Source of the DNA: Polytrichum commune
Lineage: Eukaryota > Streptophyta > Polytrichopsida > Polytrichales > Polytrichaceae
Reading direction: 5' to 3'
DNA length: 64,000 bases
Assembly: GCA_950295325.1 (NCBI GenBank)
Contig: OX485807.1
Location: 2,668,501 to 2,732,500 of the forward strand
Shown: in pieces, positions 17,407 through 45,677 of the stretch
Numbering within the stretch: the first letter of the stretch is position 1
How the letters are laid out: each line of letters opens with the position of its first letter
The notes under the pieces: model-generated
What the model saw: only the letters and a program-made list of their open reading frames with translations
Databases searched by the model: none
What the model was told of the DNA's origin: nothing
Program-made: the position numbers and the translations under genes

Positions 17407-17436
17407 AAGCCTTGTCTCGGATCCGAGACAAGGCTT
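17407..17436. promoter_or_regulatory. GGATCC-centred palindrome, 30 bp
   Basis: Longest perfect copy: AAGCC and GGCTT flank the 20-bp core. It stands just upstream of a splice-acceptor-like CCCAACAG and the MnmA-derived exon. Confidence 0.85.
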
Positions 17437-17452
17437 TGGGGTCCCAACAGGT

Positions 17453-17914: not shown

Positions 17915-18189
17915 TGTTTAGTGTCGTGGGCCACATGATTTATCATGAACGTAGAATAATGTGGGTCAATTACCTTGCAGTATAAGTAGACTTGTGACAA
18001 GTGGAGGAGAAATTGTGACAGGTTGTCCTGAAGTTGTGGTAAATGGCGCAAAATTTATGACAAGCGGCATAGACATTATGACAGGTGACACTAAGACAAG
18101 AAGCTCCAGAGTGTTGAAGATAATTGTCAAGTAGCAGGGCTTCATGTACATCAGAGAAACCCGTCAATTTTCCTCTAGGATTGTGCATT
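17915..18189. other. AT-rich spacer before the tandem palindrome array
   Basis: No gene. It holds imperfect repeats of a TGTGACAAGTGGAG / TATGACAAGCGGCA type (17992-18090). The 60 bp from about 18130 recur at 18606-18667 inside the following array. Confidence 0.4.
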
Positions 18190-18922: not shown

Positions 18923-21900
18923 ATGAGTCACGAATTTGCAGAGGGTGAAAGCGAGAGCCCAAAGGTCAACATGGAGGTTGAAGATGGTGGTTTAGCAGAG
19001 ATTGAGGAGAAATTACGGACAGCCGTGAGAGGCAATTCACATGATGCAATTCAAAGTGCACTTGAATCTCCAAACTGTGAACTTGACGTGCCCTTGTGCA
19101 GGATGATTCCTATGAAGGATGTTAGAGAGCCCTTGAAGACTGACATTCAGAAGTTGAAGGCAGAGTTCTCTCGTGGGTATAGGCGGGCATCAGCCTGCTT
19201 CTATCTATCCTTAAGGAGTTTCAGAATGGAAGAAGCAACCATCACGGAGACTCATCGGGCTTCATGGTCGGATTTGTGGCGCAAGAAGGATTTGGAGTTT
19301 GAAGCTCGATTGGCAAAAAATCCAGCATTAGGAAAGTATTCTAATCGGTTTTTCTACGTATGGGACGGGAATCACTGTCATATTGCATGGATGGATGTCA
19401 TTAGTGCCCTCCATAAAGATGATGCATTTTTTCATGTTCCCGTACGTTCTGTTTTCATCAACGTATCTTCAAAGAATTGTAACATGCTATTGCATGCGAT
19501 GACAGATTGGAACAAGTAAGTTTTTAAAAATATGTTATTTGAATTTTGAATTTCTTGTTATTTATTATTTAAATACTCATGTTAGTAAATGCATCGTGTA
19601 TCATTTGTATTCTTAGTTGAGGTGTATGCAATCCAGGAAAAACCAGGTTGATCACGTCGCCCAACACTTCACGCACAATGTCAAGCGTGTCCAGCAATTG
19701 GGATTGCTAGACTTTGATCAACTTAAAGGACTTGTCAGTGATGAAGACCTTCAAGCTAGTATTCTTGAGTGGAATCGTCATGGTGGGAAGAAACGGAAGT
19801 GGTATCATCTTACTCACGATGCATTCATCAATTGTTTATACGAGGTAAATTACTTGTCTACTTTCAATTTGTCACCTACAAGTTTAAATGAGAACTTGTC
19901 TGAATTTGTTATCTTTGTTTGTAGCGAGAAATCTCCACAGCACAAGAAGGGGCAATCAGGTGGTACAAAGACAGTCTTGTCACCGGTACAGGCGAAGATA
20001 GAATTGGAAGTCCGTTTGAACTACAGGCCGCCGCAACTAAGGCTGTTGAGGCAAAGAAGACCTCCCTCTCCACAGACCTATCTCGGTACCTCGCAATTGC
20101 CAATCCAGCAAATGGAGAGGGTTTCATAAGAGAGGTATGTGCTCCATCATCTATCATAGATTTTTTTGTTTTTTGTAATTTTATTCAACTTGGTTTGCAT
20201 GGTCTCGGATCCGAGAGAAGTTAGATGGGACGTTTATAATAAATATTTATGAAATAATAATCCTCTTACTGCCCTTTATATGGTTATTGTGTTCTTTGTT
20301 TTAGAAGAAGTTCTATGTGGCTGAGGTAAGTGATTAGTTAAATTTGGAGGCCTTCACTGGTTTTTGTGATGTTATTTTGTGTGGTTGGCTTGATTACGGG
20401 TTTGAGAGGGTTAAACCTAAACAATTAATGTCGTAAATTTTGCATATATGTCATTAAATGTTTTCTATATTATGTCTTTTTTTGTAGTGCAAATTTTTAC
20501 TAATCTAATTGTACTTTTGAAAGTAGATTATTCATCACTTTGATATCTTTCAAGTGAAGCCTGAAATGACTTCAGAGAAACTACAACTTATTGCAACAAC
20601 AAAGGTTTCTTCGAAGCACAAAGAGAGATGGTTAAGGTGGTAGAATATGAGTAAGGAGAGTCGTAAAGAATACAACTTTCCTCCCTCACCCGCTTCTGAT
20701 TCAGTTCTTCGGATTTGGATAGATCAAGCTGCCTTCTGGGCTGGGGTATGTTATTTTGAACCGTATATTTGTATTTTTTATGAAGTTTAAGTTATATCTA
20801 AAATTTGAAAATTAGATGGATTGAATTGAATTTGTTTTGCTGAATAATTGTACATTGTTGCAGTTAGAGGAAGAGGCAGTAAATCGATTTGAGAAAATTA
20901 TGGAGGAAGATGCTATCATATTGAAGACCGAGGACTTGCCCAACCCAGTGGACGATATTAGAACTTGGATTGAGTCCCATTCTATTACTTTGTGGGGGAA
21001 GGCTTTCAAAGAATTTTTTTCAAATGATGGCACTTATACGAAGAAGGAGTTATTTCTTGTCCAAGCTGGTACTGAGAATGCTATGAAAAGAGCTATCTTG
21101 AGATATTTCTGGAGGGAGTTGGTGATTAAGGAGGCCATTGATAGGAAGAACATTCCTCAACGTTTTAACAAGTGGGTGGATGTTTCTAGTAGTGAATGTA
21201 TTTTTTCAAACTATCAGAAAAAATATTTTGGAAGACCTCATCTTTTTCAATGTCCTTGGTATCTTGAGTTAAAAGAAAATGAAAGATGTCCTGGAGAGGA
21301 GAGAGCCTTGAAGGCTAGTTGTGACAATATGATGCAACAATTAGAGGCTAAGAATTTGGTACATATTGAAGAAGATGCATCAGAGGTGGGTGATGACAAC
21401 TCTATATCTGACAAACAAAGGAAGAAATTGGCTGACAAGAAAGCAAAGGTTGAAACTCGTTTGAAGGAGAAAGAAGAAAAGAAGAAAGGCAAGGAGGAGG
21501 AAATAAAGTTGAAGAAGGAGTTGCAGCACGGAACAAAGAGTTGGCAAAGCTTGTGTTAAAGGAAGGGCCAGAGAAACTTCTTTCTTATGTGGGTATTTCT
21601 CCTTCAGGCAGTAGCATGCCCGCTACTATTACTCCTTTGGTTTCTCAGGTGCCTCTTTCCGTTGCCCCTTTTCCTTCACAAACGGTGTATACTATCCCAT
21701 GCTCGTAGTTGGATGATGTAGAGAGTGGGATAGAGATCATCAATGATAGTCATTCAGGTATTTTGGACTTGTTTGATGATGTTACTGAGAGTGATGAGCT
21801 AAAGATTTGGAGGCGTATGAAAGCATGGATTAAAGATCATCAAGGTAAAAAGATTCGAAGTTATGCGGATTGTGAAGCTGACAATGTAGTTGATCTTGTT

Positions 21901-23154
21901 ATCTTTGATGTTCCGGAGGATTTACCTATTCCTGGACTTGGTATTGCTAGTGAAATTCCACCTTGGAACCGTCATCCAAAGACTAAACCAGATGGTATAG
22001 ATGGAAAAGTGGAATCCATATGGATCAAGAGGCATTTTGAGTTTGCCATGGAGTTTCTTCAAGATGATGGTGCCCTCATTGTATTTTAACCTGATTCAAA
22101 GTTTATATCCAATGAGCTTTTATCTTGGGCGGATTGGGCAAATTTTCAGGAGGAATCCAAGTGGTTTGCAATTAACGGCCTTCCTTTTACTGTCCCGGAT
22201 CATCCATCCCGTACGCACAAGTGTTTCATGGTGAAATGCTTTGTTAGAAAGGAAAATCCGGATAAAGAGGTTCCAATGTCCAATTTTGTGTTTTGTGACC
22301 GTCCTGAACTTCTTGCACAGGGCATCAAGTTGTCATCAGATGAACATCTCACAAACCTCATTGATGTTGATTCTCTAACTGTTCAGTCGGAGAATAGAAT
22401 GCCATTTAGAGGTGCACGGGAGAAGTCTTTTAATTACTCATGGCTCTTATTGATCTCTGCACGGTTGAAGATGACATTGTCATGGACCTCACAGCCTCCA
22501 CAGGTATTATTTTTTCCCTATACTTTTCTTTTGATATGTTTGGTCATTAATTTATACCAAATACTAAATGGTATTGTTTATTTCAGGTGCTTTTGTTCGG
22601 GCATCAAAGAGTCTTCATCGTCATATTATTGCATTTGAATATGACAGTATCTTATACAAAGAGGTATTGGTTCCTCTTCTTCCCCAAGCTGAAGAAGTTC
22701 AGTCAGTCAAAGTTACAAGGTCTTCTCCAAAGAAAAAACGCCCTTTGGAGAATGCAGATGAGCCAGAGAAGAAGACTGTTGCCAAGCGAGCTTGTAAGTA
22801 AGTCTACACTATCTATCTTCAAATTTTTAAACATTTCCTCAATTTTTCTTACCAACATTTTTAAATGGTTGATTTTTACTTGTTTATAGATGGCGCAAGG
22901 AAGCGTTGAAGTCCTCTATGATGAAGTATGATGGAAGCCCTATTAGACCTCTTCAACTTCCTTTTCATGCTGAGATTGTTGCAGAAGCGTATGCAGCTAC
23001 TTCATCACCAGACCCTTCTCCAGAAAAACCTAGTAGTTGCCGTCCTGTAGAAAAATATTTCCATATTTCTGCAGAAGTTGATGGATCATCTAGTGACAGT
23101 GATAGCGAGGAAGGATGGATTGAGGCTTCTAATGATGTTGAAATGTCTTCGTGA
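18923..23154 (+). pseudogene. ParB-like/methyltransferase-like protein of the second giant element, decayed
   Basis: Exons by phase: 18923-19515, 19637-19844, 19925-20134, 20305-20325 (7 codons), 20527-20745, 20864-22503, 22587-22797, 22890-23154. The ATG follows an acceptor (TATGCGCAG) directly. Exon 1 holds FFYVWDGNHCHIAWM, a ParB-like DGNHR motif with R changed to C (CGT to TGT). Exon 6 has a Lys/Glu-rich coiled coil, then DLVIFDVPEDLP, in the place of a DPPY catalytic motif. Its end plus exon 7 give MDLTASTGAFVRASKSLHRH and IIAFEYD, a SAM-binding motif I. Catalytic motif before SAM motif is the beta-class order of N6-adenine/N4-cytosine methyltransferases. Exons 7-8 are basic, then acidic. 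Decay: TAG at 20641, TAG at 21706, TAA at 22087, frameshifts near 21520 and 22430. ParB and methyltransferase calls come from motifs only. Confidence 0.65.
20203..20216. promoter_or_regulatory. Partial GGATCC-centred palindrome in an intron
   Basis: TCTCGGATCCGAGA, the inner 14 bp of the palindrome, lies in the intron between exons ending at 20134 and starting at 20305. Confidence 0.7.
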
Positions 23155-23884
23155 TCATTGAAGCACTTCACATAAAAATACGTGTATTTCCTTCTAATAT
23201 ATGATCTATTTTTATTTTTATGAACCTTGGATTTTAAGAACTTTAAAGGCTTTGAAGCTCTACATAGCATTGTCCTCGACATCGACGACCAATTGCTTTG
23301 CTCCGATGTTCAAACGGAAGCTAGACATATGTATGATGAATTGTGATGATCGTTTGAGACGTTTTAGCAAAACGTCAACAAACTGACATTTAATGTCAAG
23401 CATAAAAAATTCATGCATTCGCGACAAACAACTCTGTATGACATATTCAAACAATAAAATACAAACCCTGATTTTTGTTAAAAAAAATTGTGCACTTAAC
23501 CATGATGCGTACTTAAATGGATGTGTACTTTATTAACCACTTTAATGTCTAGATGATGACTATTTAAATTGGGCCATTTGAAAAAAATTCAACCATGTTG
23601 ATATGCATGTTGAGAGATTCTAATGTACCAAAGGTGTTTTTTTTGTTTACAAGGCCTTTCCAAAAAAATTCATTTGTGTGAACTGCAAAAATCCCTCCGC
23701 GGGAATAGGACCTTGATTAATTTTTGTTAAATAATATGTAGATTTTATAGAATGAAACCATAAATTCTCCACGGTCATAGGGTCTATATCATACATTTCA
23801 TTGAAAAATTTGAAGAATAAAAATTCAAATTTTCTGCTCACGGCTCACTGCTCACCGCTCACCGCTCACAAGATAGCATTCCTG
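23155..23884. other. 3' flank of the second giant element
   Basis: AT-rich, no gene. The element's right end should be here, but I could not find an inverted repeat matching the 8.5-9.5 kb region. At 23835-23869 there is a microsatellite-like run of GCTCAC-CG/CT units. Confidence 0.35.
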
Positions 23885-25613: not shown

Positions 25614-25639
25614 CTTATCCTTCAAGGGAAAGGCCAATT

Positions 25640-27876: not shown

Positions 27877-27915
27877 AAACACTATATTCGTTAATCGGAG
27901 ACTTTTGAAAGTCTC
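27877..27915. repeat. Left terminal inverted repeat of copy 2 with hairpin
   Basis: The terminal repeat is followed by GAGACTTTTGAAAGTCTC (27898-27915), an 8-2-8 palindrome, the counterpart of the perfect one at 7004-7021. Confidence 0.75.
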
Positions 27916-28279
27916 AAAATAAAATATGCCCATAGTTTGGGATGCCAATATTGTGGGCATACGGAATATTGGGAACATCAAGAACACGACGATTTAAAAA
28001 TTCGCACGTAAAGCATATTTTTATTACTAAAAATAGAGAATTTCAATTAAAATGAAAACGTGAGTTCCATGTGGAAAATAACAATCGACTCTAAAAAATA
28101 AATGGTTTATGTCATTATAGAGTTTGGGGTGCGCATCTCATAAGTAAGGCTCTTATGAATTTGGGTTGCACATCCCAAATGTATACCACAATGGAATGTG
28201 ACAAGTCCACTAAGTCTATTAAAAACCAAGTCTACTAAGCGTCCATGTTTTTCGCCATTAACTCCCACCTATGTTATGT

Positions 28280-31200
28280 TTAGGGATCTCCATCTTCCAC
28301 TTCATATCCATTCTCGGCGTCATTTTTTGCCGCTGCAATACGTGCCAAGTTGTCTTTGGCAAAATCTATATGTTTTTGGGGGATGGTCATTGTTTCTGTT
28401 TTGGAACCTTTACGCGGCTTCCAAGCACAAAGTATAGTGTCCGTGTTTATCCAAACCGGTGTGTACGCTGAGTCCATTGTCCACTTAAAATTCTTTTTGG
28501 TGTCCCAACCTAAATAAGTGCGTAGCACGTTTTGGTCTTTAGTGCTTGGACGACAATATTCCACCTCAATTTGACGAAAATTGGGGCTAGTTCGAACAAA
28601 ATTGGGTGAAGACAATGCTTTTACCAACCAAATTGGCTTGGGATGTTCCTCATCCCCTGCTCGTACAAAGACCAAATAACCTTCATGGCAATCAACACCT
28701 ACACGAAACGACGGTGCCGGTCGATTGCGGGCAGGGCCAACGTAATGCTCGTCCATTGCGAACTCTTCACGAACGTCTCCATTGCTAAAAAACATGGTGT
28801 CGGACTCGACAACCGTTAAACGGCTTTGTGGCCAAAATCCTTGTGTTAAAGTTGTACGGGTGTCGCCACCAAGTGTCATTAGGGCCGAGCGAATGCGATC
28901 CCAATACGCAATCAAAGGTTCATGAGTATCTCTAACATGTCTAGTGATGTCCTCCTCACACAACTCTTTCCAATATTCAATGAATCCGGATATGCCTTTG
29001 ATGATTTCCGGCCCATTCCTCATGGGGTCGGGTTTGCAAGGCTTTGGATCCCCATCTGGAAGCAAACATTTGCCATCATTGTCTTGACGCCATACGAGTA
29101 TACCATCATCCGGGCCCCAATTAGGAGATGTGCACAAAAGCTTGAATTACATGGCCGGGAGACCATCGTCCCTTATATAGAATCGGAATTGTTGTGCTTT
29201 GGTATGCCCCACCAAACGGTCCCCTCCCTTCAACATGTATGACTTGATGAAGGCCTTGAAATCTGGTACTTCCTCAATCAAGTGCGGAATTACTGGCATA
29301 TGGTCCAAATCCATATACGATTTCATAAGAAGAGGTATGGTTGGAAAATCTTCTTCATGCAACTTCATGCTCCACCGTCTGAATGATGCATCAATGTCGT
29401 CGTGTGTATGTCCCACCATCAAGAAAGACACAAACACCTCCTTGAAGATTCTTTTCGCCACGAGCAATGACCAAAATACGTATCGACATTTGTTGTCCTT
29501 CGCACAATTATCAAGTTGAACGTGGAGAGTTGGAGGCAATGGTTTTGCACAAATGGGTTCTCCGGGTGGTTCTGGCAATGACGACATACAAACCTCCTTC
29601 CCCGCAAGCACTGCCTCATAAAGGGATGTGGTTCCACAACCATCAAAAAGTGCACGGGAAGAATGTACCGGTGGCTTCTCAAAATCGCGCAAGAGTTTTG
29701 CAAATGAACCCACCGTGTGGTTAGCATCGCCAGGGTAAAAATCCAAACCATAATGGGCATACTTTACGTCCCCATGGCCGTGGGCAATCATACCTGGAAA
29801 AAACAAACGATGCGTGAACAAAATAATCAAATAACTACTAAACGGATATATGGAGTTGGACATTTGCCAAACACACCCAAGAAAATTGGATAGACTTTAA
29901 ACACGTAGTTGTGATTTCATACAAACTTGTGACAGCTACGGGCAACTTGAAGAGACCATCCGTGGCCTTTATTTTGCGTGCATAACAAGGGCATGCGGTT
30001 TTGGCGTGGTCCATTTTATCATGGATGACTGTTAGAACCTCTATGGGCCTCATTATGGATAGAGCACGATTCTTATAGTAATCTTGACGGTGTGCCTCTT
30101 GATTGTTGACATGCTTAATATATTTTTTCTGGTGTTTGGAATGAGATTCAGTGCCTATGGGGTGGGCGTCTCGAAGACCTTTGTATTTTCCACACGTCGT
30201 ACACCTTGCGAACTTGTCCCCGGGTCTTTTAAGAATGTATTCCGCAAACTGCTGGTTTTTAATCACACTCAACTTGGACAAAGAAATGGGCCCACATCCC
30301 GCTATGCGACCCACTTCATTGATGTCCGTTAAGATGTTCTTCCATTTTGTGCCCGTGGGCAACACCATTTGAACAACCTTCTCCCCTGACGACAATGCCC
30401 TCGTCTTGTGGGGCATTGCATCGGCCAATGGCACTATGATGGTGGATAGTGTCGCGGACGCTTGCAGTGTAGCCTCCCTAGGTTTCTTTGTGCCCGAGTT
30501 GCCATGAAATCGAGAGCGGCGACCCAACGATGAATACTTTCGAAACCTATAAAAGTCAACCTTGGAGACGGCGTGGATGGTATACCACGCTGTACAACAC
30601 ACATCAACATTCTCAAGTGTCACCACCTTATGCCCATGTGTATCAAGGTGCAAATTTCTGTGGACCTCGAGTTTCTTAGCCGACCTCATACGAAAATCCG
30701 CAAGCCACATCTCTTGACGCAGAGACCTAATTTTCTCCCGCGGGAAAAATTGGCAACATTTCCTCGCGCAACAATCCTTGCCGGACACTAGACGGATAGA
30801 TTCGTCCCCCAAAAGCCGATCCCGTCGACGCTCCTTATCTCCGCGAGGCACACGGTTTGAATCATATCTACGGAGGCCTTTGCGAGGACGTGTTTTGGCC
30901 AACAAAGCTAATTGTGTTTGCTTATGCCGCCGCTCATGATCCCACAAACTTACTTCCTCATGTAGAACTTGACGAAGCCGCCATCGACGCAAGGAAAATC
31001 TCCATGTCACCGGGACCTCTAGCGGAAGCAAAGAGTTCAAGATGCACACGCCAACATCATCGAGACCTAGGGCGTTGGCATCGACACAATCACAGGGATT
31101 GGAGTTTCTACATATGTCATCTGCCACCGGGACACCAACCTCGTTGAGTAGAACGACATCAAGGCCAACCCATTGCTCCCTCCCGAAACCGGCACACAAC

Positions 31201-31403
31201 GGAATGTCATCGTGGTCATCTCCGGAATGTAGAGATTGTTCGTGGACTTCCAAAGATTTATGGGAAGATGTATCCACAAACACCCCCCTCACGTTTGGCA
31301 CACCATTACTATCTGCCGACGGGGAAGACACTTCACATTCAGCATCGGATGACGATGCATACGTCGACAACTCCAATGAACTATCACCCACATGCAACAC
31401 CAT
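28280..31403 (-). pseudogene. DUF7869-like candidate transposase, copy 2 with one nonsense codon
   Basis: Exons 31403-29927 and 29793-28280. The first has exactly the same length as in copy 1 (1477 nt). The 133-bp intron keeps GT/AG, with the last exon base changed from G to A. Protein identity to copy 1 is very high and all motif blocks are kept (LDNCAKDNK, GHTHDDID). Differences: a TAA at 29147-29149 (codon 708 of 996) where copy 1 has CAA, and loss of two codons (FC) after RYVF. No frameshift. The single C-to-T change means this copy is either dead, truncated after the putative catalytic blocks, or read through. All three putative catalytic acidic residues lie before the stop. Confidence 0.8.
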
Positions 31404-31539
31404 ACCACCTAAACCAACGACCAGGAAATGATCAACCCAACCACCACCGCAATGCATACAAGAGAGGATAGAATGTATGTGGAGATACATGGCCCAAAAT
31501 TGACAAACAAATTTTGGTGCACCATTGGAGAACCTTACG

Positions 31540-32974
31540 CACAAAGACGAACGTGCGTCCCAAAAAAACGTTTTAAGCATACGTCTAGGAGCCTCACTAA
31601 TGTAAACAATACATGGACAAAGAGGAGAACACTCGTTAGTCGTCCAGGAGGGCCCTGCTATTCGGACCAGCGCCTATCCCCATACAACCGACGACGAAAT
31701 CACAAATCCGAGAACGCCACATGCATTTACGAACGCGCGTTCGTGACCTCAGTAACTTCTCCATGTACATCCGGCGGCCTTCGAGATCCCTCATCTGAGA
31801 GCACCCTCAGGAATATCGGTTGTGTAGGTCAAAGTACCATGTTGACTTAGGAACCTGTGCGATATATTATCACAAGAGAACACTTGTCCATACGCACAAA
31901 AGTACTAAATCTGCAGATGATGCCTGAATCAAGTCCAACAATATTTTGAACACTGAGCACCTTCATATTGTGAATTTGATTATGTTGACTTTTGCGTACC
32001 TACCCATTCACGAACGGACGTTCGTAAATGGGTGCAACCCCGTGTTCACATCCTTCACGGACGAGCGATGAGCATATTTTTCTTGCTATTATGTGTTCGT
32101 ATATAACTGCCATACTGATGTGTATGAATGAAGATGTGTTGCTGGATGCGTAGACAATAATGACATGTATTTACAAACGCACGTTCGTAAATTCCCGACC
32201 ATCAGGTTCTAATAGACACGGGTCAAATAAGTATGTATGATCCTCGAAGGCAGATTTACGAACGCACGTTCGTAAATGACTGTCATGGATTATGTGCATG
32301 TAACTAACCATATGAGTAGCTCAATCCAGAACATGCTCTCATGTGGGATTTTAGAACGCACGTCCGTAAATTACCGACCATCAGGTACCAATAGACACGG
32401 GTCAAATATGTATGTATGAACCTCGAAGGCATATTTACGAACGCACGTTCGTAAATAAATGCCATGGATGATGTGCATGTGACTATCCATGAGTAGCTCA
32501 ATCCAAAACATGCTCTCATGTGGGATTTACGAATGCACGTTCGTAAATTACCGACCATCAGGTACCAATAGATACGGGTCAAATATGTATGTATGATCCT
32601 CGAAGGCATATTTACGAATGCACGTTCGTAAATAAATGCCATGGATTATGTGCATGTGACTATCCATGAGTAGCTCAATCCAAAACATGCTCTTATGTGG
32701 GATTTACGAACGCACGTTCGTAAATTACCGACCATCAGGTACCAATCGATAAGGGTCAAATATGTCTATATGGTCCTCGAAGGCATATTTACGAACGCAC
32801 GTTCATAAATAACTGACATGGATTACGTGCATGTGATTATCCATATGAGTAGCTCAATCCAGAACATGCTCTCATGTGGGATTTACGAACGCACGTTCGT
32901 AAATCCTTGCCATGTACAGGTCCGAATCATTTGTCTAAACCTGAAGCTCCTCATCTTTACGAACGTGCGTTCGT
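31540..32974. promoter_or_regulatory. ACGAACG palindrome array of copy 2, partly tandemly amplified
   Basis: Exact cores start at 31729, 32010, 32258, 32437, 32706, 32885 and 32959; decayed ones lie at about 31546, 32173, 32350, 32530, 32615 and 32791. From 32165 to 32900 they sit in a tandem repeat of about 178 bp, roughly four units, each carrying two palindromes (one before TTACCGACCATCAGGT, one before a segment with GTGCATGTGACTATCC). Copy 1 lacks this amplification. Confidence 0.85.
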
Positions 32975-35115
32975 AAAGTTCCGGTATTTACGGCGGTGTA
33001 TGCGGTAGGTACAGCCTGTATTGTACCTGGGTGGTGTAGGGTTGGCGCACACGAAATGGCTTGAGCGCGTTCAGTGAGGTCTGTAGAGCGCACACTTGCA
33101 TGTGCCGCTGAAAAGAGCTTTGTTGTGGGGGGGAAAAGCTTTAAGTACTTCACCCCGCTGGTTCAAAATCCCTTGGATGCTCTTTAAAAAGCGGATTCCC
33201 GCCGCCTTCTTTGACCTAACAATCTCCCATTCCATCCATGCGGAATTATATAAATAGCACTGTCATGTATGGAACATGCCTTGCATGCACGCCAACATAT
33301 TGAAAATATATAAATCGGTTGCACACCTTAGTTGTGACCAAGGTCTCATCGAAATATATGTATATACATATATATATATCTATATCTATATATACACATA
33401 ATGTCTAAATATGGAGATGGTTAACATTGAATATTTAATGATTTGCGACTAAGGTATGAAGTCCAAGTTAATTGACAATTGATGCCTAATAAAGTTATGA
33501 ATGCCGAAGTCATAGATATATATATATATTTATACATATATACACATATACACACACACACACAATGAGGTCATAGTGGCTAAGAACATGTTGCGGATGC
33601 CCCTAAAATTATAGGTATCATATGTTTCACATCAAAAAATGACCGTAATATGGTCACCAAGTGCATGAATACAACTAAAAAATCGGGTTAATCCATAATG
33701 GCTTGCACTAGGGTAGATTGAGGACATTATGAACTAATTATACCTAATAATATATGTAAGTTAGGTCTTCTTTCAAATGGTATCTAGGTGTGAAAATAAG
33801 GAATTAAAATGGCATGAGTAGGAAGGATTAATCAATTTGTAATGCTGCATAGTATGATATTGTAATGATCATTGAGACTTGAAACCATACTAGCTACCGT
33901 AACGTTGAATCATAGTTACAATTATTATGTGTTTGACGTCCTATTAGAAATTGAATTTTCCTCCACTTGTTGTAAGGGCACGGATACACATTGGTTAAAT
34001 GTTTATTAGATCATTGGTGATATTTATAGTTGAATGCATTGTTCGATTGTTAGTTTAAGTTGACACATGATTAAATGAGTTGAGGTCCTATTCGAAATAG
34101 ACTTTTAGGGTTTGGGGAAATGCACTATTAATTTGGAATGGTGCATACAATAGTATGTACTTACAATTAATATATGTTTTGCAGCCTATGAGAAGGATGT
34201 GCATCATCATAGCTTAAAGTGTTGATATAAATTGAAGTCTTAAGACATGCATGTTATTATAATAAGATCGTGGATTGTGTGATGAAATTTCACTCAGAAC
34301 TATTAAGGTGAAAGAGGGAATATTTGAAATTTCACTTATCACCTAAACCAAAGTTTTATCTCAAATCTATTAATTTGGAATGTGAAAATGACAATTGGCA
34401 TCATTATCAATTATTATAGTTGTTATGAACGGAATTAAGCATTCTCCATCCAACCAACATTGGTAGACCAATTTGACCTGCCCTCAGACAACAACATGGC
34501 CACATATAAGAAAGGTTGGTAAGATAAAAAGATGCAGGGATGTAGGGTTTAGGGTTTGCGGTTAGGGTTTAGGGTTAGGGTTTCGGGGTAGGGTTTAGGG
34601 GTTTAGGGTTTGTGAAAGTTGTGTATGTGGTATTTGGGTTTAGGTTTTAGATTGTTACTAGGATACATTACACACACAAACAATATTGACTCCTCAAAAA
34701 CCTTTGTAATTGCAGTAACTTCATTCATCGCAAGCTCGTAGTTGATGCTAGCAAAATAGTTGACCATTCCAGAAATGCATTAGTTCAAGCTAACACCTAA
34801 TATTGGAACTTGAATTGACATCCTATCGTATAGCAACTCTGCGCAATCTCATATTATTATGAATTCCTTTTTGCATGTAATATTTATTTGAGGAACCATC
34901 GAATTAATTGAAAGATATCTAGCTCTTACATAAACTATATTTTAAAACACCATATACATATCTTTGGGGGTGGATTCTACATTGACAACCTAGGAAATGA
35001 CATGCATTGTTTATTACGAATTAACTGAGCATACTTTTCTAAAATATGTTTACAAGGAATCCAAATGTAGAGGTACTAAGGAAATAAAACGAGTAAAATT
35101 CATGTATTTGAACTA
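32975..35115. other. AT-rich interior of copy 2
   Basis: Inverted counterpart of about 70-2277, without the 326-bp insertion. No genes. TA-rich microsatellites lie at 33355-33400 and 33510-33560. The GC-richer block 33000-33230 is the best conserved part next to the array. Confidence 0.7.
34544..34616 (+). repeat. Interstitial telomere-like repeat (TTTAGGG)
   Basis: About nine degenerate TTAGGGTT/TTTAGGG units. Mirror of 938-976, with more units here. Confidence 0.85.
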
Positions 35116-36247
35116 AGCTTTTCAAGTTAATGCCCTAAACGCGTCCATTACATATAAATATATCAAAGCATGAGTATAACATGAAGGGTTCCAATATACA
35201 ACCATCTCCCATCTCCCATCCCATCCCATCCCTTCCCATCACCTCCCATACCATCCCATCCCATCTCCCTCCCAGCCCTAGCCAGTGGAGCTGTACCACG
35301 TGGCAGGTGCTGGGAAACCCTAGCGGCGCAGCTACCTCCCCGCGCCCCTTCCTCTTCTCCTCATTTGTCATTTTGAGGAGAGGAGGAGCGGAGCGCTTAG
35401 AGAGCGAAGCTCTTGCTTTTTTTAGTCTTGAAGTTTTAAATTAGTTTTGTTGCAAGTTTTGAGAGATTTTAGATTGAGAGCTTGTGTGAAAGCTTTTGAA
35501 TTTGTGAAAGCTTTCATTGTGAAAGCTTGTGAGTTTGTAAAAGCTTTCAGTGTGAGAGTTTGTGAGTTTCAAAAGCTTGAGAGCTTGAGTAGGAAAGCTT
35601 CAGAGTTTCGGATTGAGAGCTTGAGGGTGATCTTTAGAAGCTTGAGAGTTTAAGGAAGCTTGAGAGTTGAAGCTTGAGAGTTTAGGGAAGCTTCAGAAGT
35701 GAAGCTTGAGAGTTTAGGGAAGCTTGAGAGTTAAGGGTTTGCTTAAGAGTTCAGAAGCTTGAGAGCTACAAGCTTGTGAGTTTTGTGTACATGGGAGTAT
35801 ACTAGGGTTTGTATATAAGCTGTGAAGGCTTGAGGTCTGCATTAGAGAGTTAACTGAGTGTGCATTTGAAAGGCAATTGAGTGTGCAGTTGTGAGGATTT
35901 CTGGGATTTTCAGAAAGAGAAGAAGCAAGGTTTGAAGTGTGCAGCATTTCAATGTAATTTGTTATCCTTTCCAACTCCTCTCACATTCTGAAAATGTTGC
36001 TTCTTGAATTCAATTTGTTTTGTTACATGCAATGTGAATTATCACTTTCTTCTTCATGTTTCATTCTCAATCTCATTCTGCATCTCAATTGCGTTCTGAT
36101 TGAAGATTTGCATCATTCTGACCAAGATTTGCAGACATGGCTGCAAGCAGGTTGCTAATAAATGAGACATATATGTATTCGTATACGTATTCGTATATAT
36201 ACGAATACGTATATGTACGGACAGGGGATCCCAAAACCATCACATTT
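35116..36247. other. Centre of the element: simple repeats, no gene
   Basis: A CCCATCC-type microsatellite fills 35204-35275. From 35450 to 35800 there is an irregular minisatellite built on AAGCTTGAGAGTTT, in which one strand stays open by chance. At 36182-36213 lies a perfect 32-bp AT-rich palindrome (centre TATATATA). No ACGAACG palindrome occurs before 36248. Confidence 0.6.
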
Positions 36248-36873
36248 ACGAACGCTCGTTTGTAAATGGACATACACTGCATACCCACCTCCATTTACGA
36301 ACGCTCGTTCGTAAATGGACATACACTGCATACCGAACCTCCATTTACGAACGCGCGTTCGTAAATACGCACTCCACGTCCTTTGGAATGCTCTATATTT
36401 ACGAACGCACGTTCGTAAATATACACCAAATATCACTCAGATGGAACCTTAACTTTAATATGAACCTATCCGAATATCTAAAGAACAAATATAAATTTGC
36501 GAACACCAATAAAATAACTCACATGTACTTACGAAAACTAAATCAACCAAATGTCCGAAAAGATAGACCAAATGGACATACTTACGAACGCACGTTCGTA
36601 AACAAAACCAAATCTAGAAAACCTATATCTTTTACGAACGATCGTTCGTAAAAATAACCAAATATATTGCAAATACATTCATGACGAGTAGTCTCTTTGA
36701 TCTTCATATCTTTTACGAACGCTCGTTCGTAAACTCAATACTAAAAATTTATATTATCTTGCAACCCCTCATTTACGAACGAACGTTCGTAAATATAATT
36801 ACATCAATTGCAAAGACGCATTAACAATGCGTAGTATGTGGGATATGCATGTCATTTACGAACGTTCGTTCGT
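36248..36873. promoter_or_regulatory. Nine-copy ACGAACG palindrome array upstream of the ParB-like gene
   Basis: Cores start at 36248 (one mismatch), 36297, 36347, 36401, 36584, 36634, 36715, 36775 and 36858. Middle bases are CT, CT, CG, CA, CA, AT, CT, AA and TT. The last copy ends 31 bp before the acceptor-ATG at 36905, so the array lies in the promoter, leader or a 5' UTR intron. Confidence 0.85.
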
Positions 36874-37445
36874 AAAGTCACTAATTGTTTATATTCTGTT
36901 GCAGATGGCAAGATCAAGCAGAAGCGCCATTGAGATGTTCGCGGTGAAGGTCGATCGCCTCCCAGAGTCGGTGTTAGACAATAACGGCAACGACAACTAT
37001 GTCCCCAAGGAGGACTTCATGGGGGAGTGGACGGCACTGCCAGAGAAGATCGGGGACGGCCTCTTCTGCATGCGCTTCACCTACGAGCTGGAGACCAGAG
37101 TGGACCAGCCTGAACAGTGGGTTCAAATGAAGACGTGGGAGATAGAGTCCATAGAGGCCCAGGGGGAGTATGTAATTCTTGACATGAAGAACAAGAAGGA
37201 TCATATCAACCTCTTGTTGCATTTCCAGAAACATACCTTCTCCTACCAATACGCCACCAATAACGTAGTGGAAGATGCCAAACACTTCGACCTCGACGCA
37301 CTCTTCTCGAAGTATGCCTTGAGCCCATACTGGACGGCAAGGAAATTGATAGCCCTCGCCTTGAACATCTCGAAGTACAACAGTGTGGTCACCGAGGCCA
37401 ACAAGAAAAAGAAGAGCCCCAGGAAACCATCCACATCAGGGGCAG

Positions 37446-39041
37446 GTGTGAGCCCAAAAGGGTGCCCACATTTAGTCTTAGACCCTTGAAACGTTAGTTG
37501 ATGCACTTTGAAGTAGCATGTTACTTCACAAAAATATAAAAAGAATGAAATGTTAGTCTTAGAAGTACCATGTTGTAAGAGGCTAGGATGTGAGTTGTTA
37601 TTGTGTTTTTACCTTCGGAAGGATTTGAGTGAATGAGGATAGGTAAGGAGAACTTGGATTGAGTAGTTAGTGAGTAGGCTAGTACAAATGGATGGAGACA
37701 ACCAAAGTGACTCAAGAGGCAAGTGCATTCGAATTGGGATGAATGGAGGATCACATGGAGCGCACAAGTGGACCACCTCATCATGGCCACTTAATGGGGA
37801 AGGCCCAAGGAAGAATGCAAGGTGGAGGATAAGCAAATTCTCAAAGCACCAATCAAATCACGAGTTAAGCATCGTGGTTTGAATTAAGTGGTGAGCGACG
37901 ATTTGGGAAAGTAAGGGGAGAAAGTTATGGCGGCGGAAAGCGAAGGAGGCTAAGTTTGGGTTGAAGCATCCCAAGTTTGGTAAAGTGTGGTAGGTAGAAA
38001 GCCAAGGCTAGTTAAATGTTCGAATTAGGATCCTTGTTGATCATTTGAGGGAGGAAGGCTTAGAAGATAGGATTGGCGCCTACTAAGTAGGAGGAAATCT
38101 CAAGGGCTTATCGTGAGCCTTGAGGGTGCTCACCCCCTCAAGCTTACTATATAATCCCTCATTCTTCCCTCACTCATCCTCTCTTTCCTTTGTGCTCCAA
38201 GGCACCCCACGAGTTATAAGTGTGGGTGTGGGAAGCCATATTGGAGCACATGTGTGTGCTTAGTTTTTAGTTTGAGAGCCAAGGCTTGTTAGCCTTGAAG
38301 AGGGCTTGACCTCTTGGTAGAATTAGTGTTGACGTGAAGGATTTTAAAGTTAATTCATGATTCCAATTTGTGGTACTTTAAGTTCATGTTTTGAATACAC
38401 GTGGTTGCAAGTTCCATGTTTAAGAGTTGAGCACTTGATGTTGTGATGAGTGCAAAAATATACTTGTGTGGATTAGTTAGTCTTAGTGAAGTTAGGAAAT
38501 TCTCTCTCCCCCTCTCCTCTCTAGGATTTTAGGATTTTAGGATTAGAGAAGAATTGTGTGATTAGAAAGGGGTTGTTAGTAGAATTAGGGAAATTAGGTA
38601 GGAAGATTAGTTAAGGGCTTGAATAATTAGTGAGGTAGTTGGGGATTACAACTACAAAGTTGTGGGTTTATGAAGGAGCTGGGTTTGTTTAGTTAGAAAG
38701 TAAAAAGCTGGGTTTATGAAGGACCTGGGTTTGTTTAGTTAGAAGCTAAGGAGCTGGGTTCATGAAGGACCTGGGTTTATGAAGGACCTGGGTTTGTTTA
38801 GTTAGAAGCTAAGGAGCTGGGTTCATGAAGGAGCTGGGTTTATGAAGGAGCTGGGTTTGTTTAGTTAGAAGCTAAGAAGCTGGGTTTATGAAGGAGCTAG
38901 TTAAATCCAAGACCACTTGAAGGGTGAACCTTGCACTATGGACTCATCCAAGTCCAAATCCAATACCGCGGAGGAATGTGAGCCCAAACCCACTACTCGG
39001 ACTACGGACGCTTAAGGGTGGGGGGTTTGGCCTCACAGCAG
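37446..39041. other. Large first intron of the ParB-like gene, with inserted repeat DNA
   Basis: The intron is 1.6 kb while the others are 90-150 bp. It contains an LTR-like block with ACTATATAATCCC near 38150 and a minisatellite of about 45-48 bp units (GGAGCTGGGTTTATGAAGG) at 38660-38905. It has no palindrome of either family, so the bulk is probably a later insertion. Confidence 0.5.
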
Positions 39042-39804
39042 GAGGATCAAGAAGTGCACCCAGGCCTGTGCCTTCCGCGAGTAGGGCGACGGAGGGCCCC
39101 AGCAGGCACTGCACGCCATCCAAGAGGACAAGGGAAGAGATGGAGAAATCGGTAGTCACAAATATCGCGGAGGTGAGCTCGCCGGTATTGATGCCTACCC
39201 CCTTGAAAAAGGGCGAGAACCCAGACGCTGTGAAGGCCACCAGAATCCTTCGAGACTTCAACAACTACTCGAAGGATTGCTGGCCCATGGGACGCCACTT
39301 CACATTCAACGTGAACTGCTTCAAACGCGAGAAGTCCCCCAACAAGTGGGTGGTTCGGTCTCGCGAGAGCGGTGGTGTGAAGTGGCAGATCAACAATCTC
39401 ATGAACAACGTCAAGTGGGATAGGTAGACCGTCTGCGTCATGCCGAAGGGGCTGACATCCCGTCCGACGGAGAAGGACTGGCCACGGATCCAGATTGGAG
39501 AGTTCTGGATCATAGACGGCCAGCACAGCTTGGAGGCGTCCCAGATAATCCTCAAGGACGACAACTTCCAGCACGAGCTGAAGGCAGATTTGCGCTACTG
39601 GAAGGCGTTCCTGGTGTGGTCGGACGACTGGGAGAGGCTGCGGAAGATTTCCACCTTCCTCAACTCCGGCAACAAGATCAAGGCATTCGAGGCGTCGTGG
39701 GCTGCCAACATAGTGGCTGCAAGAGATATCTGGGTCGCCCACGGGTGCCCCCCCAAGGAAAGGGAGAATGCCAAGACCCCGTCTCCCCAATGGAAGGTGA
39801 GTTT

Positions 39805-39875
39805 ACGAACGTTCGTTCGTAAAGTTGGGCGCATTTCTAGTTCTTTTACATTCAAATTTACGAACGTGCGTTCGT
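39805..39875. promoter_or_regulatory. Two ACGAACG palindromes inside intron 2
   Basis: Cores at 39805-39820 (centre TT) and 39860-39875 (centre TG). The intron is only 115 bp (39797-39911). The first copy starts eight bases after the donor site. Confidence 0.85.
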
Positions 39876-41259
39876 ATTGTGTGCATCACTGACTTTTGTT
39901 TTTCTCTTCAGGCTTTTTGCGATGCGATGGTGGACAAGTTCTCCTCCATCGATATGAAGTCCACAACAACCAAGTCTGTCCTGGAGCTCAAGGGCGAGCT
40001 CCGCCTCATCTGCTGCAACAGGGACACTTGGGACTTGTGGACCCAGTTTTTTGATGCACATAGCTCGGGAGATCTTGTCAACCCCGACACCGAGGAAAAA
40101 TATAGCGCATAAAAGACCGGGGAGGCCCCTCCACTGCTGAGGGAGTTCTTTAGGTCCCTTCAAGGGTTGACGGAGTCCGAGTTGCAGAGGTGCGCGGTGC
40201 ATCTTCTTGGGAACACAGTGGGTAGAACCATACCCTACCCCAAGATATTTTTGAAGAGGCCAAGGCACAAGCCCGGCACGTATTCCATAAAGGAATGGTG
40301 CGACCACCGCAAGATGAAGACGGCGGCAATGAGGGAGTTGAGTGCCCTAATACCCGAGTACGTACTCTTCCTGGCCGACGGGGACGTGAATTGGGCCAGT
40401 TGGAAGATGTTGAAGGTCGACTACAACATCTCGGGAGCCTCAATGCGTTGCCTTGTCAAGGAGCACGCCTCCATTTTGAAGCAGAAGGGGAACAAAAGGA
40501 CCAAAAAAACCGAGACGGATCCCCAGGAGGTGGAGCAATACAAAAGGTTTTTGGCGCGGAAGAGATTGGCCACATTCGAGGGAGTGGCCAGATTTTGTGT
40601 GGTGACAGCCGGCGTAGAGAGAACAACTTTCTCTAAGTGGGACGGCACCATCAGCAGGTCCGAGGTTAGGGAGGACCGACGGGGGTGTCCATTTGCCTTG
40701 ATCGATTTCAGGGGGATCCCGGGTGCGTCGAGGCAGGGGGGGAAGGACATGCCATTCTACAACCCCTTCATGACCAAGTTCAAGGAGCCCAAGTCGCCGG
40801 ACATGAGGGAGCCTCACGTTTGGCTGTGGATAGTCGAGCAGGAGAAGCTCTCTACTGTAGTCGACCTGTACGAGAAGACGATCAAATTCGAGTACAGCAT
40901 CTTCCACAGCACTTACGTGCCCGCCAAGACGGAAGGGATCGTGGCCATCAACGAGGCTAGGGGAAACAAACAGGTGGGGGCGGTCAGCCTCGTCTTCTTG
41001 ACATACAACGCGCTTCGGAATGGGCGAGCCCCTGTCAGGGCGAATACTACGTTCAAGAAGATCTACAGCATCCCCCATCCCCCTCCCAAGGATCTGCTGC
41101 AGGAGACCTTGTACACTATCTTCCCGGCGCTGGAACTCAGGTTGGAGTTCTACGTCTCCGTGTTGCAAAGCGTGGCAATAAGCGGAGAGACTGTATACAA
41201 CGTCTGTGGAGGCAACAAATTCATGTACGCTGCAATGGTAAGCTCTCCAACTAATATTT

Positions 41260-41354
41260 ACGAACGCTCGTTCGTAAAGTTCACCTCAACTTGTTTGGGT
41301 TTCATTAAAACTTGCATTGTTTCTCGTCGTTGATGTTTACGAACGCACGTTCGT
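41260..41354. promoter_or_regulatory. Two ACGAACG palindromes inside intron 3
   Basis: Cores at 41260-41275 (CT) and 41339-41354 (CA) in the 146-bp intron 41238-41383, one near each end. Confidence 0.85.
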
Positions 41355-42363
41355 ATATTCTAACGTATTTTCTTGGATCTCAGATGCTGGGGCTGGTCGT
41401 CAACAACTTCATTGACGCCATCGACGAGGAGGACTTCCAGGTGCACAGGGCGAAGGCCTCCACGATGGACCTGGAGGACATATCCCTCCCAAGGACGGAC
41501 ATCAACATGCCCGTCGACGAAGGCATGCCCGCCATGGAGACGGACGACGACGAGCCCGCGCCCTCCTACAACGTCGAGGCGATCCTCCGATCCTTGGACG
41601 TCACTCCTCTCCGCATTTTGGCGCCGTCGGGAAATCCATCCGACGTGCAGGGGACTCCGGGTGGATACATGGGGTCGTCGGCGGGGACAACCCAAGATGT
41701 CCTCCCTGCGAGAACGTCTGGAGCGGAGGCATTCGACACTCCCGGGGGATGCTCGACATCCGTGTCGCCCAGGCCAGTCGTGGTTCCCAAGATGGAGAAC
41801 CTCGACCTTCTGGACCAACGGTCCCAACCGACGTTGGACCACTACCGCAACACGAGGCGGAGGATGAAGAAGACCCCCTACGTGGAGCTGCCTCCGGGGG
41901 CAATCATCGAGGTCTCCGATGAGGACGAGGGCGACATGGAGATCATGGTCGAGCTGGGGGTAGACTTTGACAAAAACAAGAGGGTCAAAGAGGAGGCATT
42001 GTCCGTCGCCGAGCTTAACGCCAAGCTCGAGCAAAAGATGAAGGAGGACATGGCGAAGGCGGCAGAGGAGAATGCCAAAAAAATGTTCGAAATTCAAGAA
42101 GAGCTGAGGCAGTCCAACGAGAAGACGGACGCCATCCTCGCCATGCTCCAGCGTATGCAGAACTTCGCGGCGCCCCCCCAGCCGGCCTACCCCTTCCCTG
42201 GAGGATACCCCTCCCAATCCCCTCCACCAGGCATGTTCCCCGGAGGGCCTTCCCGCCAGTAGGCGCCCCACCTTACGCCTATTGGCACTCCTCCGCCCCC
42301 AGAGGTTCCCTTGACCACCTCCCACGATGTTGTTGCGGCGGCCATCCAGGAGGACGAGGATTT

Positions 42364-42862
42364 ACGAACGCGCGTTCGTGAATCTTCAGGTCCTCCAGTC
42401 CTCACCCCTCCCCCTTCAAGGGTAGGACTGCCCTCAGACACCGATACGTCGTCTTTCACCATCGTCCCCAGGGTAGTAGACAGACATGGCGATGACTCTG
42501 CGCGACACACTGACATGATCATTGTGGAGGACACGCAGGGGAGCCCCAATGACGCACCAGGAGTGCAGGGGATGGACGTGGAAGAGACCCCTGCTACGTG
42601 GATGGAGGATGTCCGGATGGACGCGCTCGACCTGGGCGCCGAGGATGATAACGTGCTGCGCATCCAGCAAATGCAAGCGTCTCAACCGGAGCGTGAAGCA
42701 GAGGCCATGGAGACAGAGGCGGCTGCAGCTGTGGAGGTTACGAACGCACGTTCGTTAATCGTTGAGGAGGGACCTGCTGCTCGGTCCAGCGCCGCTGCCC
42801 CTCCCCCCGATGACGAGGTAACTCTCCTCTGAGAATACCATTTTTTACGAACGCGCGTTCGT
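42364..42862. promoter_or_regulatory. Three ACGAACG palindromes in exon 4 and intron 4
   Basis: Cores at 42364-42379 (CG) and 42740-42755 (CA) lie in the coding exon and read DLRTRVRE and VTNARS; the core at 42847-42862 (CG) lies in the last intron. Confidence 0.85.
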
Positions 42863-42942
42863 AACCTCTCTAACATCGCGATGTTTTTCTCTTCATCGAC
42901 ATCCAGTGGCCCGCGAGAGCCCTCTTCAGCGATCCCCCTTAG

Positions 42943-43434
42943 GGACGAACAGTTTTGTAGGACACGGCATCATTTTGCCTTAGGAAAATGTGATAGACTA
43001 TCACGTGAGAAATGTAAATATTCAACGGATTAATATATGAGCCTATGTTATCTGCATCACGTTGCTTCAAATTCTCTGCCCTCAACCCCTTCTCGTATAT
43101 TGTATATGTTGATGCGATTATGTTCATTCTTGCATACCACACCTCATTCGCGAATGCTCGTTCGTGAAAGGGTGCGACCCACTGTCCACCTCATTCGCGA
43201 GCGACCGCTCGTAAATGTACGTGTAGCCGCGCTCACGAACGAGCGCTTATAAATGATGCGCACCGCCCCCGCAGCCTTCATTCACAAACGCTCGTTCGCA
43301 AGTGTGCCCTTGAGCACATTTTCCTTGCACTCTCCTCACTTCCTCGTCTTTCCCCATAATGCATCGTCTTCATTTTCTACGCAAAATTTCATTATTGGAT
43401 CATAGCATTAAACTAGTCGAGTTGTTCATCACAG
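42943..43434. promoter_or_regulatory. Intergenic region with decayed palindromes
   Basis: Four degenerate copies near 43148, 43186, 43232 and 43283 keep CGNTCGT-like half sites. They lie upstream of the phosphatase-like gene as the arrays lie upstream of the other genes. Otherwise no feature. Confidence 0.6.
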
Positions 43435-44202: not shown

Positions 44203-44314
44203 AATGCCTCCATGTCTTTGCTTTGTATCATGTGGTTCACATTTACTAATGCTTGGTTCGTTTTTGGATGTCTTTTGTTGTTGTGATTGTTGTTGTTGTT
44301 GTTCTTGCCCATAG

Positions 44315-45646: not shown

Positions 45647-45677
45647 CAAAAAGTCTCCAAATACCGAATATAGTGTT
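45647..45677. repeat. Right terminal inverted repeat of copy 2
   Basis: AAAAAGTCTCC, a short gap, and CGAATATAGTGTT match the other ends. The subterminal hairpin seen at 7004 and 27898 is lost here. Confidence 0.65.

Follow-up and report, generated by a model that had tools for sequence, protein, structure and literature searches.

Predicted ParB/methylase-fold proteins encoded by moss transposons may recognise palindromes arrayed in their own elements

Two genes for ParB-like and methylase-like proteins in the moss Polytrichum commune were found to lie on mobile elements, each accompanied by its own palindromes; among the relatives of one of them (element 2), the type of palindrome follows the protein clade. 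The mobility of both elements and this correspondence are the new observations here. The explanation that we favour, with a probability of roughly 0.47, is that transposon-encoded ParB/methylase-fold proteins bind their own palindromes and keep their elements expressed. The window below is the whole 64,000-nucleotide stretch that was analysed.

Results

Both genes belong to mobile elements

The gene limits proposed by the sequence-only reading were right for both genes, and so was its use of the word "elements": both are mobile, as judged from dispersed copies, from ends and, for element 2, from target duplications. The features of element 1 are as follows.

18923..23154, + strand: element 1 ParB-like/methylase gene (ATG 18923, TGA 23154)
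18923-19515, 19637-19844, 19925-20134, 20305-20325, + strand: exons of the gene model, first part
20527-20745, 20864-22503, 22587-22797, 22890-23154, + strand: exons of the gene model, second part
23865..23884, + strand: right terminus of element 1, CTCACAAGATAGCATTCCTG

All seven modelled introns have GT-AG borders. The copy in the window is broken by three in-frame stops and two frameshifts. The relative P0001 shows 57% identity to the element 1 query (55% of the query covered), and the moss relative P0002 shows 34% (46% covered). The genome contains 17 further copies, 11 of which share the right terminus, ending at 23884 or 23885 with differing flanks. The left end was not found, and the reverse complement of the right terminus occurs nowhere else within the window. 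A MULE-like open reading frame near element 1 was recognised by eye only, and a Pfam search with it gave no relevant match.

Element 2 is a mobile DNA transposon with terminal inverted repeats (TIRs).

27878..45678, + strand: entire element 2, with ends common to other copies
27878..27890, + strand: left terminal inverted repeat, AACACTATATTCG, with TAAA directly before it
45665..45677, - strand: right terminal inverted repeat, the reverse complement of the left, with TAAG directly after it
36905..42942, + strand: ParB-like/methylase-like gene (ATG 36905; end at 42832 if the last intron is unused)
36905-37446, 39043-39796, 39912-41237, 41384-42817, 42907-42942, + strand: coding pieces of this gene
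37447..39037, + strand: 1,591-bp insert (TGTGAG...CTCACA) flanked by two copies of GCAGG, which breaks element 2

The element also carries a DUF7869 gene on the - strand and an NIF-phosphatase-like open reading frame. Its target duplication in the window agrees at three of four bases (TAAA/TAAG), and the 4-bp duplications are exact in two of the three copies with both ends (ATGT/ATGT and TTGA/TTGA). At least 39 further copies are present in the genome; among five copies examined, the left end is common to four and the right end to three. A 63% repeat-rich pair at 35712-35845 and 45845-45713 was rejected as the termini, the true ends lying at 27878..45678.

The three modelled introns of the element 2 gene all have GT-AG borders. 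This copy is broken as well, by the one insert and by three in-frame stops; the sides of the insert adjoin in four of five other copies, the fifth being unclear. Identity to the element 2 query is 50% over 70% for the relative P0003, 36% over 71% for P0004 and 35% over 45% for P0005. Because the in-frame stops noted are all TAA or TAG, an alternative genetic code (TAA/TAG read as Q) was considered; it was rejected, since relatives carry ordinary residues at these places, the best named relative is from a moss, and the same copies contain frameshifts and the insert. The in-frame stops are thus read as decay.

Palindromes are arrayed upstream of the genes and inside their introns

The sequence-only reading had also described parS-like palindromes beside the genes, and these are real. 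The palindrome of element 2, ACGAACGNNCGTTCGT (type A), has 39 matches in the window with at most two mismatches, where 0.09 are expected; that of element 1, TTGTCTCGGATCCGAGACAA, has 10 matches with at most three mismatches, where 0 are expected. Their positions are as follows.

14157..18847, + strand: TTGTCTCGGATCCGAGACAA, nine copies 5' of the element 1 gene
20200..20219, + strand: tenth copy of TTGTCTCGGATCCGAGACAA, with two mismatches, in an intron of the element 1 gene
31729..32974, + strand: 11 type A palindromes 5' of the DUF7869 gene, a single mismatch in some
36248..36873, + strand: nine type A palindromes (one mismatched) immediately before the start codon of the element 2 gene
39797..39911, + strand: element 2 intron 1, with palindromes at 39805 and 39860
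41238..41383, + strand: element 2 intron 2, with palindromes at 41260 and 41339
42364..42862, + strand: 3' part of the element 2 gene, with three mismatch-free palindromes

The last five of the nine upstream copies in element 1 sit in tandem repeats spaced by 155-159 bp, and most of the 11 palindromes upstream of the DUF7869 gene lie within a tandem repeat spaced by 177-179 bp. Only one of the seven element 1 introns contains a palindrome.

One alternative, which we regard as unlikely, is an accessory transposition protein whose binding to the palindromes would serve the assembly or control of the transposition complex and leave silencing unaffected. TnpA of En/Spm is a precedent for such a protein. 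This idea fits element 2 being a TIR transposon whose second gene, for DUF7869, has the same palindromes upstream. However, many of the palindromes are intronic rather than terminal, and between the outermost sites found in the window copy and its ends there are about 1.1 kb on the right and 3.9 kb on the left. Less probable still is an autoregulatory transcription factor, for which the palindromes would be ordinary operators and host silencing would not be countered. The dense arrays directly upstream of both element 2 genes are what such a factor would predict, but sites also occur in all three introns of the element 2 gene (the third of these introns, 42818-42906, is putative and includes the third palindrome of the 3' part) and in both introns of a type B gene described below.

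Palindrome type follows protein clade among the relatives of element 2

Three clades can be told apart among the relatives of element 2, and their introns contain the palindromes ACGAACGNNCGTTCGT (type A), ACGGACGNNCGTCCGT (type B) and GGGTCGNNCGACCC (type C), respectively. When labels were assigned mechanically, 20 of the 35 N-terminal relatives carried exactly one of the three types and none carried two, the label patterns having been set after the tails had been inspected. Clade and palindrome matched without exception in 21 labelled rows, a comparison that covers the relatives of element 2. On the tree including the window row, the labels change twice, which is the minimum; shuffled labels gave a mean of 10.5 changes and were as low in 0 of 200 shuffles. 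With only two label changes, the pattern could come from shared descent alone. Fifteen of the 35 relatives are unlabelled: in six, the frame ends within nine residues of the exon; P0003 is without an intron at that place; P0013 and P0018 resemble a type B variant, and P0025-P0027 a type C variant; P0014 ends inside a possible C site; and P0035 and the tail of P0037 are compatible with A or B.

The same pattern was seen in the genome. Type A sites are present in all five element 2 copies examined, and the two copies with both ends contain 25 and 13 of them, with no such site in the 21.2 and 23.5 kb beyond their ends. A type C gene has 10 type C sites and no type A site. A type B gene, located by the spacing of type B sites alone, carries them in the 5' region and in each of its two introns, and contains neither A nor C sites. 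Counts over the whole genome were 5,602 for type A and 1,394 for type B, against 4 and 1 for the reversed controls. Outside the palindromes, the CpG observed/expected ratio of three element 2 copies is 0.82, 0.85 and 0.86, compared with 0.34-0.51 in the flanks; it is 0.52-0.64 in element 1 and 0.43 in element 2 intron 1, over 67 bases. The high ratio of the element 2 copies may reflect youth or base composition.

Overall, each lineage studied has its own palindrome in promoter and introns, which points to recognition of the elements by the proteins they encode. The earlier proposal that they act on their own palindromes thus gains support from three clades with three different intron palindromes.

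The predicted domains are ParB-like and methylase-like

The sequence-only reading had assigned a ParB-like and a methylase-like part to both proteins. This stands for the pair jointly, through the methylase of element 1 and the ParB fold of element 2, and is weaker for the ParB part of element 1 and the methylase part of element 2. The motifs concerned are as follows.

19364..19375, + strand: DGNH motif of element 1 (DGNHR in P0002)
21907..21918, + strand: methylase motif IV position of element 1, reading DVPE
22485..22503, + strand: S-adenosylmethionine (SAM) motif I of element 1, DLTAST, with GAF following after the intron 22504-22586
39515..39526, + strand: DGQH motif of element 2, within the ParB/Srx fold of its relatives
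40704..40712, + strand: methylase motif IV position of element 2, reading D-F-R
41184..41219, + strand: glycine-rich SAM-motif-like segment of element 2, GETVYNVCGGNK

For element 1, a beta-class DNA-methyltransferase domain is confirmed at the level of family profiles. The Pfam N6_N4_Mtase model matched the window piece alone weakly (E 0.0048; 17.3 bits, cut-off 26.7), and P0002 passed the cut-off (30.4 bits, E 4.9e-7). In hhalign, three members of the family aligned to 11 phage methylases with a probability of 97.9% over 220 columns. The family also matched DpnA-type enzymes at E 6e-4. The ParB-like domain of element 1 is a weaker candidate, suggested by the DGNH motif and the order of domains. 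The AF2 model of P0002 has a mean pLDDT of 31.8, and the hhalign score between its N-terminal part and that of element 2 was reached by 2 of 100 shuffles, which is marginal.

For the element 2 family, structure searches confirmed a predicted ParB/sulfiredoxin fold around DGQH: with the P0003 model, the ParB family took all of ranks 1-7 in one search and 1-13 in another. In a viral structure library, half of the best six matches were named ParB/Srx proteins of phages; of the others, one was a phage "DNA methylase" and two had no name, and the matches below these were mixed. Of the 35 N-terminal relatives, 34 have DGQH, and in 33 of these the next residue is S. The methylase-like domain of element 2 has weak support: hhalign gave a score of 26.95 at a probability of 7%, a score that none of 150 column shuffles reached (best 25.3), and the C-terminal motif part scored 26.86 (best shuffle 21.7). 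Searches of Pfam, NCBIfam and PDB sequences with the gene matched no methylase. Confidence is low in the methylase half of the P0003 model, and the lack of a methylase among the matches listed is not evidence either way; MAFFT apparently placed six exon-2 relatives against the N-terminal half, which probably weakened this part of the model. Over their full length, the two families showed no significant similarity in hhalign (0.3%).

The sequence-only reading had further proposed that the proteins may bind their element's own sites and methylate or mark them. Active beta-class enzymes carry the catalytic motif (D/N/S)-P-P-(Y/F/W). Methylation activity of either protein is doubtful, as DFR or DVPE stands where the catalytic DPPY is expected. 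An active methyltransferase writing 6mA or 4mC in its own palindromes is accordingly improbable, although palindromes are typical methylase targets, element 1 has the methylase fold, P0002 alone has a plausible D-T-P-F, and the second position of motif IV is tolerant (phage enzymes have D-I-P-Y, D-L-P-Y and D-M-P-Y). Against it, eight of the nine element 2 relatives covering motif IV read D-F-R and the ninth D-F-C, the window element 1 and P0001 read D-V-P-E, and the first glycine of motif I is changed in the element 1 family.

CTP-dependent ParB proteins carry the arginine-rich ParB box GERRxRA. That the ParB domain acts at the palindromes by nicking or by clamp loading is very improbable, for although the element 2 fold is nearest to CTP-binding ParB and the ParB domain of Bacillus cereus Bce_0392 reportedly nicks DNA non-specifically (PMC5512222), DGQHS replaces this box in the element 2 family.

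Discussion

We propose that both genes are mobile-element genes that would encode a sequence-specific DNA-binding protein, in which a ParB/sulfiredoxin-fold domain precedes a beta-class DNA-methyltransferase fold whose catalytic motif would be lost in element 2 and altered in element 1. The target would be a dyad palindrome in the gene's own 5' region, in its own introns and upstream of the element's other gene, probably recognised by a dimer with one half-site for each subunit. Binding would sustain the expression of the element itself and of other copies bearing that palindrome, in the manner of VANC in VANDAL elements. The analysis shows the mobility, the arrays, the palindromes that change with protein clade and, at the strengths given above, the domains; from these we infer the palindrome binding, the reading domain and the anti-silencing outcome.

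The closest comparison is with VANC/VANDAL of Arabidopsis (PMC5735166). There, VANC targets are directional nine-base words whose motif differs between related families and whose arrays grow through tandem repeats. The moss elements are similar in that a transposon encodes the protein, a short motif recurs in arrays in non-coding DNA (upstream of another element gene and within the introns of the protein's own gene), the arrays are enlarged as tandem repeats, and the motif changes with protein lineage, here with two changes only. Unlike VANC targets, the sites here are dyad palindromes with a two-base spacer, and both binding and hypomethylation are putative. The protein would be of a different kind, and a Pfam search of P0001-P0005 reported no VANC-related model. 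VANDAL elements carry a MULE transposase; element 2 carries DUF7869, and the MULE-like frame near element 1 is a candidate by eye.

The prokaryotic fusion Bce_0392 joins ParB/Srx and adenine-methylase-type domains in one chain (PMC5512222). The predicted moss proteins resemble such fusions in this arrangement and differ as plant transposon proteins of about 1,000-1,200 amino acids with introns, extra regions and an altered or lost catalytic motif. Like beta-class N6/N4 methyltransferases (PF01555), they would have motif IV before X and I, with a family profile match for element 1; unlike them, they read DVPE, DTPF or DFR for DPPY and have an altered motif I. The element 2 ParB part departs from the ParB/Noc/KorB/PadC and sulfiredoxin fold in having DGQHS for the ParB box, and by sequence it matched nothing in the PDB. 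The ParB parts had no match in plasmid records, and no relatives in viral contigs were confirmed. Retrotransposons of charophytes and dinoflagellates are reported to have captured C5 cytosine methyltransferases (PMC5890265); these too are DNA methyltransferases on mobile elements, also in the green lineage, but the methylase class and the element type differ from those here. Among the literature matches listed, nothing concerned ParB-methylase proteins or matching palindromes in mosses, and the part of PMC12695648 available contains no moss or land-plant passage on the topic.

A broader and more tentative possibility is a plant transposon superfamily in which a bacterial-type ParB-methylase fusion, repurposed without catalysis, serves self-recognition and anti-silencing and has switched targets more than once, as an independent VANC-like invention. 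In each lineage, a new palindrome would be re-planted in promoters and introns, reaching thousands of sites per genome. If true, this would be a second, seemingly unrelated route by which transposons address themselves in a plant genome that silences transposons, and a case of a plant having reused a ParB-methylase fold of bacterial type. The table of clades and palindromes makes the claim open to a direct in-vitro binding test, and the three clades in one genome would offer natural protein-palindrome pairs for studying how dimeric DNA specificity changes.

Two mobile elements carrying ParB-like genes

The window is eukaryotic nuclear DNA, since its sole Rfam match is a eukaryotic LSU rRNA (14564-15431), a tRNA search of it with the bacterial setting found none, and its genes have GT-AG introns. 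The only named relative among the matches to the genes studied comes from the moss Ceratodon purpureus. A fragment at 56803-57750 resembles a plant receptor kinase by eye. On these two grounds a moss is the probable host. The main features are as follows.

Features of the window
61-7041, inverted relative to element 2: second element, cut by the window's left edge, with the same terminal sequence as element 2
18923-23154, + strand: element 1 gene, eight exons, GT-AG introns
27878-45678: element 2
within element 2, - strand: DUF7869 gene (the PF25273 match is that of a 91%-identical relative at 4890-6635)
36905-42942, + strand: ParB-like gene within element 2, about five coding pieces, GT-AG introns
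37447-39037: 1,591-bp insert in the element 2 gene, flanked by two GCAGG
43459-43881: NIF-phosphatase-like ORF (NLI-interacting-factor type; PF03031, 36.1 bits), inside the element 2 limits

Both elements are mobile. When 453 bases from the element 2 gene were searched against the assembly (407.8 Mb, 64 contigs), at least 40 matches were found on contigs C1-C6 (40 of 365 candidates were scored, and all 40 matched), comprising the window itself, five at 96-98% and 34 at 90-91%. We compared five of these copies, 40 kb each, with the window, which revealed a sharp left limit (27876-27878) common to the window and four copies and a sharp right limit (45677-45678) common to the window and three, the remaining limits being broken. 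The termini are inverted repeats starting AACACTATATTCG, and the two copies having both ends show 4-bp duplications (ATGT/ATGT and TTGA/TTGA); these shared limits, ends and duplications define element 2 as 27878-45678. The window copy is flanked by TAAA/TAAG. For element 1, a 782-base piece gave 18 matches with all candidates scored; the 17 besides the window lie on C1-C7 and show 96-97% identity, and 11 of them end at 23884 or 23885 with differing flanks. A left end was looked for and not found.

Both genes are broken in the window, that of element 1 by two frameshifts and three in-frame stops, and that of element 2 by the insert and three in-frame stops. The sides flanking the insert adjoin, with five bases in common, in four of the five other element 2 copies.

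Several side features were also observed. Within element 2, 31633-32067 (just upstream of the DUF7869 gene) and 42752-43207 (3' end of the ParB-like gene) share 67% identity over 465 columns, which marks an internal duplication. Direct copies of 1.73 kb (23885-25613 and 46204-47932; 94% identity) are present, the former beginning exactly at element 1's end. Sequence resembling 24489-25471 and 46808-47794 (83-86%) is found many times, for example at C1:2455745-2475744 and neighbouring stretches, both within the element 2 copies compared, where there are several, and in the DNA around them. The stretch 7041-9447 recurs (95-97%) near three of the five copies and in one of them splits a type C gene (see below); it therefore belongs to a repeat of its own. 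The element at 61-7041 carries a DUF7869 ORF (PF25273, 133.7 bits). At 9507-12853 (- strand), ORFs of 703 and 372 aa look MULE-transposase-like by eye, and Pfam gave no relevant match to them. The element 1 palindrome region holds an LSU rRNA fragment and a 205-bp exact duplication (14564-16439), and a fragment at 17453-17911, beside one of its palindromes, matches PF20258 tRNA_Me_trans_C (42.8 bits), presumably a tRNA thiouridylase; gene capture is possible.

Element 1 encodes a protein with a methylase domain and a ParB motif

As judged from its relatives, the element 1 product has a methylase domain, with a ParB part at motif level. Two protein matches were found among the best 8000 candidates, P0001 (57% identity, 55% of the query covered) and P0002 (34%, 46%). 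In P0002, DGNHR is followed by a methylase domain, residues 903-1119 matching N6_N4_Mtase at 30.4 bits (Pfam cut-off 26.7), and PADLOC and PHROG methylase models also match. When the window protein was combined with P0001 and P0002 into a profile, this matched DpnA-type adenine methylases in PDB (E 6e-4). By hhalign, the family aligned with 11 phage proteins (12 records of 20 listed, an unannotated one being dropped) at 97.9% (E 5.3e-13, 220 columns). Together with the Pfam score, this bears out the sequence-only reading that the element 1 protein is methyltransferase-like. Motif I reads DLTASTG or DLSASTG, and motif IV reads DVPE (window, P0001) or DTPF (P0002).

Each element 2-type clade has its own palindrome

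That palindromes lie beside both genes, as had been claimed, was confirmed by 39 matches in the window to ACGAACGNNCGTTCGT (type A, at most two mismatches) and ten to element 1's TTGTCTCGGATCCGAGACAA, nine upstream of its gene and one intronic.

Placement of ACGAACGNNCGTTCGT matches in the window
11: ahead of the DUF7869 gene in element 2
9: immediately ahead of the ParB-like gene in element 2
4: two in intron 1 and two in intron 2 of that gene
3: in its 3' part, one within the putative last intron
3: weaker, beyond its 3' part
9: in the second element (61-7041)

Genome-wide, ACGAACGNNCGTTCGT has 5,602 exact matches, versus 4 for a backwards-read control pattern; the two both-ended element 2 copies contain 25 and 13 sites, with none in 21.2 and 23.5 kb outside them. 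Type B, which differs from type A by one base per half-site, has 1,394 sites versus 1 for its control, while type C (GGGTCGNNCGACCC) is further from both and keeps the CGNNCG centre.

Each element 2-type protein clade has its own palindrome. The reading frames of relatives extend into intron 1, and the translated tails reveal the type by their peptides (A, TNxRS and YERxFV; B, TDxRP and YGRxSV; C, WVxRPK, FGSxDPN and GRSTQ); labels were assigned mechanically, with patterns chosen after the tails were seen. One type was carried by 20 of 35 N-terminal relatives and two types by none, and the label peptides were absent from residues 41 onward of the N-terminal exon part in all 35. With the window included, each type has seven rows, the tree needs two label changes in total, and a supported branch separates each of A, B and C from the remaining rows (96/98, 100/98 and 100/100, respectively). 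A hand-labelled version (29 rows including the ambiguous relative P0035) agrees. Genes in this genome's DNA bear out the tail-based assignment. To the right of one element 2 copy, an insert-split gene with 70-76% identity to the N-terminal half of P0005, another relative, has ten GGGTCGNNCGACCC sites, which begin ahead of its start and extend into its introns (0 expected by shuffling), and none of type A among them. A 3.2-kb stretch selected solely by type B site spacing encodes a gene that matches P0017 at 93% identity and P0003 at 69%. Its type B sites lie immediately upstream and directly behind each of its two long exons; sites of types A and C are absent.

A possible role in keeping element copies expressed

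Outside the palindromes, three element 2 copies had CpG observed/expected ratios of 0.82, 0.85 and 0.86, versus 0.34-0.51 in the flanks; the ratio was 0.33 in the 1,591-bp insert and intermediate (0.52-0.64) in element 1. The high ratio of element 2 would fit escape from methylation, and would also fit a young age or a different composition. In the reported work on VANC, an anti-silencing protein of Arabidopsis VANDAL elements, arrays lie upstream of one gene and in another's introns, spread as tandem repeats, and change motif with protein lineage (PMC5735166). The arrays here are alike in all these respects.

The VANC-like arrays, the lineage-linked motif and the CpG ratios favour a reading to which we give a probability of about 0.47: a ParB-methylase protein with degraded catalysis would bind the palindromes of its own element, and its binding may keep those copies expressed. 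This reading ranks ahead of four rivals. That the protein is an accessory of transposition is unlikely, that it regulates its own gene more so; an active methylase marking its own element is improbable, and a nicking or clamp protein the least probable. ParB-methylase fusions are already known in bacteria (PMC5512222); the setting in a plant transposon, the change in the catalytic motif and the matching palindromes look new.
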